Origin: Gottschalkia acidurici 9a
Lineage (GTDB): Bacteria; Bacillota; Clostridia; Tissierellales; Gottschalkiaceae
DNA: 64,000 bases
Direction of reading: 5' to 3'
Assembly (NCBI RefSeq): GCF_000299355.1
Contig: NC_018664.1
Span: 1,782,380-1,846,379, forward strand
Shown here: positions 35,974 through 61,168 of the stretch, one piece after another
How positions within the stretch are numbered: the first letter of the stretch is position 1
Layout: every line of letters begins with the position of its first letter
The notes under the pieces: model-generated
Databases searched by the model: none
What the model was told of the DNA's origin: nothing
The model's input: only the letters and a program-made list of their open reading frames with translations
Position numbers and translations under genes: made by a program

Positions 35974-37323
35974 CTAGTTTAAATTAGCAGCGATAGATAT
36001 AGCACATTCTATTCTTTTCTTTTCCATTTCACAGCCTATTGTATAAGGTTTTTTTATATCTTTATTGAAGTTATAGGCATTAGCATGACATCCACCACTA
36101 CAATAAAATCTAGCCCAGCAACCATTACACTCTTCTTTTGTAAATACATTAGCTTGTCTAAATTCATCTATGAGTTTAGTATTTTGTATACCATCGTAAA
36201 TGTTTCCAATTTTAAAATCATCATTACCAACAAATTGATGACATGGGAATAAATCTCCTTCAGGTGTTACTGCTAAGTATTCAACTCCTGCACCACATCC
36301 CACAACTCTTTTTATAAAGCAAGGTCCTTGATTTAAATCTATCATGAAATGGAAGAAGCTAAATCCTTTACCTTCTTTTTTTGATTCTATATATTTAGCT
36401 GATAACTCTTCATACTCTTTCATTATTTTCTCTAAATGTTCTTCTAGTAATGCATAGTCATGTTCTGGACTTGCCACAACTGGTTCAACTGATATACTAT
36501 CAAAGCCCAGTTCATTTAAGTATAGTACGTCTTTAGAAAAATCTATATTTTTACTTGTAAAAGTTCCTCTTAGATAGTAAGATTTGTCTCCTCTTAGTTT
36601 AACGAACTCTAGGAATTTAGGTGTTATAACATCAAAGCTTCCTTTACCATTGCTAGTTGGTCTCATGTTATCATTTATTTCTTTTCTTCCATCCAAACTT
36701 AAAACTACGTTGTCCATATTTTCATTCATAAAGTTCATATTATCTTCGTCTAGTAATATACCATTTGTAGTTATTGTAAATCTAAAGTTTTTATTATATT
36801 CTTTCTCTAATTCTCTACCATAAGCTACTAGATCTTTTACAACATCAAAATTCATTAATGGTTCTCCACCAAAAAAGTCTACTTCTAAATTTCTTCTATT
36901 TCCTGAACTTTTAACTAGAAACTCTAAAGCTTTTTTCCCAACTTCTAAAGGCATGTATAGTCTTTCACCATGGAAGTCTCCTTGAGATGCAAAACAATAA
37001 TTACATCTTAGATTACAGTCATGGGCTACATGTAAACAAAGGGCTTTTACTATATTTTCTTCATTATATTTAAATTTACTTATGTCAGCCGGTTCACTAA
37101 ATAATAAGTCATTTTCTTTTAACGTATTTATCTCTTCGTATGCTTCTCTTATATTTTCTTCTAAATATTTATCTTTTAAATTTTTTACTATATATTCTAA
37201 ATCGTTATTTTCATATAAATCTATTATATCCCAGATTAAGTCGTCAACCACATGAACTGACCCACTATTTATATCTAGTACTATTTTTTTACTATTAAGC
37301 TCGAATTTATGCATCTTTACCAT
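35974..37323 (-). CDS. thioether cross-link-forming SCIFF peptide maturase
   Basis: A 449-residue radical SAM SPASM protein. A RiPP-precursor recognition-like N-terminal domain (about 1-85) precedes the cluster C103, C107, C110 (CNLRCNYC). The C-terminal SPASM part has cysteines in CGAGVEYLAVTPEGDLFPCH and in CNGCWARFYCSGGC. This is the scifF-associated maturase: it should install thioether bonds between cysteine sulfurs and partner residues of the SCIFF peptide encoded just upstream. The ATG at 37323 follows AGGAGGAAGTTTT. Confidence 0.92.
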   Translation of the reverse strand: MVKMHKFELNSKKIVLDINSGSVHVVDDLIWDIIDLYENNDLEYIVKNLKDKYLEENIREAYEEINTLKENDLLFSEPADISKFKYNEENIVKALCLHVAHDCNLRCNYCFASQGDFHGERLYMPLEVGKKALEFLVKSSGNRRNLEVDFFGGEPLMNFDVVKDLVAYGRELEKEYNKNFRFTITTNGILLDEDNMNFMNENMDNVVLSLDGRKEINDNMRPTSNGKGSFDVITPKFLEFVKLRGDKSYYLRGTFTSKNIDFSKDVLYLNELGFDSISVEPVVASPEHDYALLEEHLEKIMKEYEELSAKYIESKKEGKGFSFFHFMIDLNQGPCFIKRVVGCGAGVEYLAVTPEGDLFPCHQFVGNDDFKIGNIYDGIQNTKLIDEFRQANVFTKEECNGCWARFYCSGGCHANAYNFNKDIKKPYTIGCEMEKKRIECAISIAANLN

Positions 37324-37350
37324 AAAACTTCCTCCTAATTCATTTTGACA

Positions 37351-37378
37351 AAATTAAAAAGTAGTGGTTGCCCACTAC
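37351..37378 (-). terminator. hairpin between SCIFF peptide and its maturase
   Basis: On the minus strand GTAGTGG/CCACTAC with a GCAA-type tetraloop is followed by TTTTTAATTTT. It probably attenuates transcription so that the precursor outnumbers the enzyme. Confidence 0.75.
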
Positions 37379-37390
37379 CTTTATGTACAA

Positions 37391-37531
37391 CTATTTTTGT
37401 TCGCAAGTTTGATTTCCTACTGTACAAGAAGTTTTACAAGCTGATTGACATGAAGTTTGACATTCTCCACATCCACGGTTTTCTAAACCATTTTTCATGT
37501 TACTTCCACTTAAAGTTTTTATATGTTTCAT
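37391..37531 (-). CDS. SCIFF precursor peptide (six cysteines in forty-five)
   Basis: A 46-residue RiPP precursor starting MKHIKTLSGSNMKNGLENRG. It has exactly six cysteines, at 21, 24, 28, 32, 36 and 43, in the pattern CGECQTSCQSACKTSC. That is the family name feature, together with the adjacent maturase. The ATG at 37531 follows AGGAGGCATAGAT. It has its own promoter-like sequence and is separated from the maturase by a hairpin. SCIFF is nearly universal in Clostridia, and its final function is unknown. Confidence 0.93.
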   Translation of the reverse strand: MKHIKTLSGSNMKNGLENRGCGECQTSCQSACKTSCTVGNQTCEQK

Positions 37532-39303: not shown

Positions 39304-39663
39304 TTAAATTCCATAATGAATCATCCATTTGTTTTCTTTAATTGCAGTAGATATCTTTTCAATCAACATTTCAAGCTCTTTTGAATTATGTTTAATATTT
39401 TCATTTATAGTGATACTAAGAAAATATTCGAGAGATGTTTGCGGTATCAAAGTTGTACCATAGAACGCAAGGCTTGTATTTGGTCGATTTAAGTTATGAA
39501 AGTACGTTTCAAGTTTATCTAATTTTTCTTTAAAACCTGCATGATATATTTCGCCTAAAAAGTCATCTTCTATAAAAATACAATTATACTTTTCAGGTTC
39601 AAACTCATCTTCATTAAAATCTTCAAGGTTTTCAATTATTCCAAAGTTATGTACACACGGCAT
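39304..39663 (-). CDS. hypothetical acidic protein, 119 residues
   Basis: I do not recognise this soluble protein, which opens MPCVHNFGIIENLEDFNEDE. It has a mixed charged composition with no membrane segment. I place the start at the ATG at 39663 because AGAGGTGATAAA is directly upstream; an in-frame start at 39687 precedes that site. No partner gene is coupled to it, and its stop lies 8 bases from the inverted-repeat element. Confidence 0.65.
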   Translation of the reverse strand: MPCVHNFGIIENLEDFNEDEFEPEKYNCIFIEDDFLGEIYHAGFKEKLDKLETYFHNLNRPNTSLAFYGTTLIPQTSLEYFLSITINENIKHNSKELEMLIEKISTAIKENKWMIHYGI

Positions 39664-39875
39664 TTTATCACCTCTTGTCTTGAGCAAATAGTATTTTTTT
39701 CATCATACTTAATTTTTGTAATATAACTATTTATTAATATTATATATAACAAGTTCTATTTAAACAAAATATATATTAAAGAAGTTAACAGAGTTACAAA
39801 TTGTTATAGTATGAAATAATGTTTATTTTCATTGCTAAATCAAGCTTTAATTTCTAATTAGGTATTACTTATTCT

Positions 39876-42060: not shown

Positions 42061-42255
42061 TGCTTAACATTTCTTTTCTTCTAGTAGATAGAATATTCAT
42101 TTTTTTATATTTTTACTGGAAACTAGCTTTAAATCATTTTGATAATAATCTATGAATCTTCTAGTGCGATTTACATAGCATTCAATTGTATTAGGACTAT
42201 ATCCTTTTAGTTTTAATACTTTTTCTAACTACAAATAAATTAATTGATGATTCAT
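41990..42255 (-). pseudogene. relic B of a tyrosine recombinase (N-terminal core-binding domain)
   Basis: On the minus strand an ATG at 42255, preceded by AGAGG, opens an in-frame but broken reading frame: MNHQLIYL, a TAG stop, LEKVLKLKGYSPNTIE, CYVNRTRRFIDYYQNDLKLV, a TGA stop and IFYLLEEKK. The phrase KGYSPNTIECYVN is the typical start of XerC/D-like SAM-like core-binding domains. The rest is lost to stops and frameshifts; the catalytic domain is absent. Confidence 0.75.
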
Positions 42256-42796
42256 TGGTTAAACCTCTTTTGATTCTAAGCATAAAGATAAACCCTAATC
42301 ATAATTAGCTAGAGTTTTAATTCCTTAATCATATTCAGTTATGGATGGAGGGTTAAAATATTATTCTAAACATTACGATTCGTATAGATACCGAAGAAAG
42401 ACATCTATATGTTCCCTACACGAAACCATCGTCACAAACATTTATTTTTACACATTCAATAGTAATTTTAACTGTTATAGTATTAATCGACTTATCACTA
42501 ACAGTATATATTGATTTTAATATAACTATTAACAATGTTTAGATACTTTAATACTGTATGATATTTAATAAAGATATGTTTAGTGGAGGAGAGGGCTTTA
42601 CATTCTCTCCCTATATCTTAGAATTATTTTCTTTATCTTATGATTCTAGCCATGTAACCTTCTAGTTGTATCTATATACCTTAACTCTGCAATCATATTG
42701 AAACTATCTGATGACTTATTTTTATCATATTATGTTATATATTCACAACTCTATTAATAATATATCTATATAGCGATATAGGAGGAAAGATTATTT

Positions 42797-42946
42797 ATGA
42801 AAAAAATTACTAAAGTAAATAAATTAGGATTTTTAGGTTTATTAGGATTGCTAGGTTTACTGGGATTATATATGAACAATCCTAAATTGTTTGGGTTGTT
42901 TGGATTCTTCGGATTTTTTGGTTACTTCAATGTGGTACAAAATTAG
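42797..42946 (+). CDS. 49-residue Leu/Phe-Gly repeat hydrophobic peptide (DUF3796-like)
   Basis: A small plus-strand gene with AGGAGG 12 bases before its ATG. The product starts MKKITKVNKLGF; residues 10-24 repeat LGLLGLLG, and residues 31-43 repeat FG with LFGLFGFFGFFG. A short polar step (YMNNPK) joins the two halves, suggesting two short membrane segments with glycine zippers. The layout resembles the N-terminal part of DUF3796 membrane proteins, which are longer. It is the only gene here on the plus strand, next to recombinase relics. Confidence 0.7.
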   Translation: MKKITKVNKLGFLGLLGLLGLLGLYMNNPKLFGLFGFFGFFGYFNVVQN

Positions 42947-43280
42947 TTATTAAGATAAAGATTGGCTCCTCAACTAACTATTGTGAATCCAATTATAAGT
43001 TAATCTACTTTAACCTCAAGATTCTCACCATATTAAATTTACATAACTAAAGTATTTCTGAACTGATATTTATAGTCTTTATAAAAGTTAATTAACCTAC
43101 TATATCATATCCTTTTCAAGTGCTAGATATAAGTTTAATAAATGCTTCGTTTTTAAGCTATAGCTCATATTTAAAATGTCCTTAATATCTATCATACTTA
43201 TTTTTTTGAATATAGCATTAATTTATAGCTGTAACTAGCAAATCGACCTTGTAAATTATCCTGTAAGTATAATGCATAAT
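42947..43280. other. 334-base gap, nothing recognised
   Basis: AT-rich sequence between the small peptide gene and the histidine operon terminator. It has a weak third resemblance to the direct repeats near 43039 and no gene I can support. Confidence 0.5.
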
Positions 43281-60736: not shown

Positions 60737-61004
60737 TCTTGTGCTCTCTCCTTGTCCTTTATATTTTTACTCATACCAAGTTAAAATTTTATCATAATAT
60801 ATAACTAATTTCAACATCTTCCAACCGTATTTATGTATCTTTATTTCATGTCTTCCGATTAGATTATATCACACAGTTCTTGCTTTTACTAACTAATATA
60901 TTGCCTTTATTCTTTATACTAAATTAATATTATTTTTCTATATTATATATATTTTTCAGTTTGCTTGATTTACATCTTTCTTAATGTTAAAATTTATATA
61001 AACT

Positions 61005-61102
61005 ATTAATATGGGGAGCTGAATATGGTCGGCTGAGAAAAAGACCCCTAAGTCTTTGACCCTTATACCTGATCTGGATAATACCAGCGTAGGAAAATAA
61101 AT
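61005..61102 (+). ncRNA. TPP riboswitch (THI element)
   Basis: Conserved THI-box phrases are present in order: GGGGAGCT (61013-61020), GGCTGAGA (61030-61037), ACCCTTATACCTGATCTGGA (61060-61079) and TAATACCAGCGTAGGAAA (61080-61097). The J3-2-like CTGAGA and the pyrophosphate-sensor helix match the class. It precedes thiW by about 150 bases and turns the operon off when TPP is abundant. Confidence 0.95.
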
Positions 61103-61168
61103 AACAAAACATGCGGAAGTCTATTTTATATAAATATACTTTAGACTATTATATTTATGTTTGTCATT

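Follow-up and report, generated by a model that had tools for sequence, protein, structure and literature searches.

Does the 49-codon open reading frame at positions 42797-42946 (+) of the window, i.e. the whole stretch of 64,000 nucleotides of Gottschalkia acidurici 9a analysed here, encode a protein in its own right, or is it the remnant of a longer gene? The frame (MKKITKVNKLGF...NVVQN) is real, as a preliminary description of this DNA had claimed, and so is the strong ribosome binding site reported there, AGGAGGAAAG at 42780-42789 (+), with the ATG 7 bases further on. The encoded peptide is small, cationic and hydrophobic, with an N-terminus rich in lysine. Its two glycine-spaced hydrophobic arms were recovered, every third residue being a glycine (G11-14-17-20-23 and G33-36-39-42); across all six frames of the window (127,996 codons), a run of at least five glycines spaced in this way occurs in this frame only. 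The gene does stand alone, with a single copy in its own genome. The recombinase relic mentioned nearby was also found, outside the gene, on the minus strand at 42100-42228, which matches the N-terminal domain of tyrosine recombinases (PF13495 Phage_int_SAM_4; E 5.5e-6, 27.1 bits for a cut-off of 27). A terminator-like stem of 8 pairs is present at 42588-42610 (+), about 190 nt upstream of the frame. Elsewhere in the window, a TPP riboswitch at 61002-61112 (+), distant from the frame, is the sole Rfam match (68 bits), and a Radical-SAM-like protein adjoins a 46-aa peptide with six cysteines at 35974-37531 (-), a pair presumably resembling the SCIFF maturase and its precursor.

The peptide had been judged too short for DUF3796 and treated as separate from this family. 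The Pfam score contradicts this judgement, as does the alignment of a related locus, L006, presented below. The 49-aa protein matches PF12676 (DUF3796) with 29.3 bits for a gathering cut-off of 24.8, while the same frame in a six-frame scan of the genome reached 21.8 bits, under the cut-off. The match corresponds to profile positions 1-41 of 120, i.e. the first third only and not a full-length member, and the frame is the first hairpin of DUF3796. From the eight solitary or tandem forms compared with the Pfam cut-off, three are above and five below. The six-frame scan found no full-length DUF3796 member in the own genome, and no solved structure matched at E 1. DUF3796 is a known family, though uncharacterised, and the peptide would be a solitary, truncated form of it.

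The full-length genes have a characteristic organisation, being placed immediately ahead of a small HTH gene and mostly downstream of a palindromic promoter. An HTH motif of the VRRET type was found within about 270 nt after the gene in 38 of the 42 full-length loci read, the 38 including L102, whose motif has stop codons around it. These 42 are fetched loci, outside which are L051 and L052 (weak matches in frames of 142 and 300 aa), L053, L055, L056, the duplicates L009-L011, L090 (read separately), matches without a fetched locus, the weak matches L013-L032 except L026, and others. The four loci without the motif are L049, L094 and L110, which were misregistered (L049 does show an HTH start), and L101 (G710), whose DUF3796 frame carries an in-frame TGA. 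The locus read separately, L090 of Romboutsia weinsteinii, presents a full-length gene, then an HTH gene. The operator ATGTKATATATTTATAACAT was matched at 16 of 20 positions or more within 100 nt before the gene in 35 of the 42 loci; as a baseline, 300 shuffles of the window's upstream letters gave a mean of 12.6 and a maximum of 16. Several full-length loci display near-perfect palindromes over the promoter, which suggests that the operon may be autoregulated. In L075 (G378), a DUF3796 form of 69 aa whose middle part is reduced, the operator and the HTH gene are both still present. DUF3796 and HTH genes under a palindromic promoter constitute a widespread, barely studied pair, brought to view here.

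The way in which such a gene can become a short one is visible in L006, which reads GAT-TAG-TTATTTAAA where the full-length gene L090 reads GAT-GAG-TTATTTAAA. TAG stands in place of GAG, the E codon of PDELF; a second stop comes next, and the dead remainder can still be aligned downstream. At the same point, the window reads AAT-TAG-TTA-TTA-AGA: here TAG occupies the E position of PDE(L/M)F and is followed by a possible trace of lost coding sequence, TTATTAAGATAAAG (42944-42964, +). The preliminary description had considered a frameshift from a longer DUF3796 gene; an origin from a longer gene seems likely, but through an in-frame stop, as seen in L006, and not through a frameshift.

We used anchored identity just after the stop to 19 full-length genes, against flank controls, to look for a lost tail in the short forms (all P values uncorrected). 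L006 was above the flank controls (P = 0.002 over 12 nt and 0.001 over 21 nt), as was L007 (0.012 and 0.017); the window was marginal (0.029 and 0.081), L005 likewise (0.073 and 0.36), and no such trace was present in L036, L038 and L040. In an N-terminal tree, built on few columns and leaving out L077, six of the seven short forms fall into one group with the tandem rows (96/91), and L006 branches outside, without a firm placement. Given these identities and this grouping, a single truncation is plausible, or one to which L006 later added a second. Since L006 lies outside the group and its pairs show little constraint (below), the gene may have been cut short there independently and not long ago. 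For the window, the same stop event as in L006 fits weakly.

The short form is patchy in its distribution. A profile built from four short forms and searched at E 0.01 through 249 genomes of the order matched 21 of them, and the short solitary frame was found in seven, the own genome counted (G000, G056, G235, G024, G220, G020 and G208). One of the seven, L005 in G056, has a broken start, its start codon no longer being in frame. None of three members examined from the window's own family matched at E 0.01 with this profile, and one of four genomes has the short form in the family of G020. In this last genome (L006/L034), the second arm is enlarged by repeated FGF units, in a slippage-like manner. 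G220 possesses a full-length gene (L054) in addition to its short form. In broader draws, which have a few genomes in common with each other and with the order survey, matches were found in 14 of 391 genomes of the class (open frames of 116-135 codons except in G000 and G024) and in 24 of 398 genomes of the phylum. One of the latter, G910, belongs to another class and carries a solitary 45-aa form (L095), and G208 encodes, besides its short form, a tandem two-hairpin solitary protein of 101 aa (L053). That the hairpin exists as a unit is shown by L095, a second short form found in another class, and by the tandem protein. L053 matches DUF3796 with 30.4 bits, in two stretches.

A search of genome contigs gave no match with the 49-aa peptide alone and at least three loci with the profile. 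No relative was found in viral contigs with the short-form profile, nor in plasmids and phages, for which the query was the full-length Romboutsia protein only. The peptide had no match in PADLOC or PHROGs, the full-length protein having a single weak PHROGs match (E 0.09). The searches made therefore found no link to phages, plasmids or defence. A literature search for the strings LGLLGLLG and FGFFGFFG returned nothing related.

The short-form loci appear to lack the regulator of the parent operon. No HTH motif was found in the window with three motif spellings, nor in the seven short or tandem regions searched. We also looked for a cognate HTH protein elsewhere in the genome: the seven matches, of which the best had 43% identity (65 residues) and 49% (57 residues), were taken as generic HTH proteins. 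What is left upstream is a putative, decayed left half of the operator, ATGTTATATATTCACAACT at 42732-42750 (+), whose best match to the full-length operator half, 16 of 20, equals the best of the 300 shuffles; no palindrome upstream of the frame rises above shuffles. This half overlaps a promoter-like block common to most short forms, ACAACTCTATTAATAATATAT at 42745-42765 (+). The longer upstream pattern, which joins this decayed half-site to ATTAATATAATATA, has a single occurrence in the genome; this speaks against a regulon under the short-form promoter. Operator-like half-sites are not enriched across the genome either (65 + 71 matches vs. 84 + 76 in a reversed control). The comparison of neighbours between short-form loci gave only two matches, and no neighbour is common to these loci beyond one protein family, found near the window's gene and L038. 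The 127-aa protein encoded in the window at 39304-39687 (-) has no Pfam match; a relative of 125 aa, 44% identical, lies just upstream of the short gene of G220 (L086).

Is the short form retained, or is it disappearing? When the seven short forms are compared two by two, their DNA is on average 0.67 identical over the 72 nt before the frame and 0.71 identical over the first 126 nt of the frame itself; in blocks lying further out on either side, the value is 0.41-0.46. Of the columns without any variation, 16 fall in the 72-nt upstream stretch, 47 in the frame and 0 to 1 in the outer blocks. These alignments show that the block running from the putative promoter to the stop is conserved and that the sequence after it is not. 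Conservation of the frame itself, on which the preliminary description had made its proposal depend, is borne out by its presence in 6 further genomes of the 249. The pN/pS of the short forms ranges from 0.22 to 0.55, and in a neutral simulation the number of amino-acid changes was under the mean in all 21 short-form pairs and at the 1% level or below in 12 of the 21, these pairs being overlapping and non-independent. Only one of the six pairs involving L006 reached 1%, which indicates little constraint.

The same data bear on another explanation, in which the frame is what is left of the 5' end of a DUF3796-HTH operon that has died, lying beside other relics of mobile elements and not yet completely eroded. 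A patchy occurrence, the broken start frame of L005, the dead coding sequence still present in L006, the decayed operator and the recombinase relic 570 nt away all speak for such a stump. Erosion does not readily account, however, for the conservation of the frame and its upstream block next to former coding DNA that is not conserved, for the fact that most pairs within the short-form group have kept their amino acids better than neutral change would allow for, or for the good ribosome site still present in the window. We consider a decaying relic to be fairly unlikely.

Our best reading, to which we give a probability of about 0.6, is a truncated but retained DUF3796 membrane hairpin that stands alone. 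AlphaFold2 predicted two helices in the peptide, at residues 9-25 and 29-46 (mean pLDDT 72.7, pTM 0.43, four sequences), and four helices in the full-length Romboutsia protein, the first two as in the short form (65.7 and 0.48). Hydropathy, glycine spacing and this hairpin prediction of modest confidence agree with the small membrane-type peptide proposed initially. Based on the helix models and the lysine-rich N-terminus, we favour a membrane hairpin that would act alone or with a partner; a small subunit is possible. An ancestral in-frame stop at PDE(L/M)F would have removed everything after the first two helices, the partner regulator would have been lost, and the operator would have decayed while the promoter was retained. 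The peptide would sit in the membrane as a helical hairpin, its lysine-rich N-terminus inside, with the glycine faces mediating packing or oligomerisation. In the parent operon, we expect the membrane protein either to pass a signal to the HTH autorepressor or to retain it; of this arrangement the mini form would preserve the membrane part only, as a membrane-active or partner-binding hairpin. A broader scheme, speculative and unlikely as a whole, would make DUF3796 and HTH a partly mobile switch of Bacillota, built from a membrane sensor and an autorepressor; the mini form would then be a freed hairpin with its own promoter, either a membrane-stress or killing peptide or a decoy binding the full-length sensor of incoming elements.

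A small, cationic and hydrophobic peptide also calls to mind a toxin or a bacteriocin, and both had been suggested; from the sequence, we found no positive evidence for either. A type I membrane-active toxin would be restrained by an antisense RNA, for which there is one leftward promoter-like match (10/12, at 43019-42992). Such matches are nevertheless below chance (8 vs. 14.7 expected), folding is no better than in shuffles (RNA z-scores of -0.79, 1.24 and 0.53) and Rfam has no match at the gene, so that neither an antisense nor another structured RNA is supported. Moreover, conservation is confined to the frame and about 72 bases upstream, leaving no conserved flank able to hold an antisense gene. 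Membrane-associated type I toxins (reviewed in PMC8309996) share the small hydrophobic membrane peptide but are defined by the paired antisense RNA, of which no sign was found here; this explanation is improbable. A secreted or leaderless bacteriocin, which could likewise be cationic and hydrophobic with two helices, is very improbable: the peptide is homologous to an operon-encoded membrane protein, and, a single protein close to one locus aside, no neighbour is common to the short-form loci, hence no immunity or export gene was seen. In the retained membrane hairpin, which we prefer, a membrane-regulator operon would have lost its regulator, with a conserved micro-protein as what remains. 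Its interest is modest, and would be greater if the parent switch matches what its anatomy suggests.

Among known systems, SdpI/SdpR is a membrane-receptor and repressor pair and can be compared, by analogy, with the full-length operon, since a membrane protein is encoded there beside a small autorepressor; the families of the two pairs are not known to be related. A Tn6189 variant of Clostridioides difficile carries a DUF3796 gene and, next to it, an HTH gene (PMC11983580). This pair belongs to the same family and travels on a transposon, but the passage concerned presents the full pair and no short form. Compared with the full-length DUF3796 operon, the short form ends at the PDE(L/M)F motif, without helices 3 and 4, and lacks the HTH gene; its palindrome is not intact, and no TTGACA-like box stands at the customary spacing. 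It shares with the full-length form the N-terminal hairpin with its LG/FG glycine spacing, the NKLGFLG start, the FNV end and, putatively, half of the operator.
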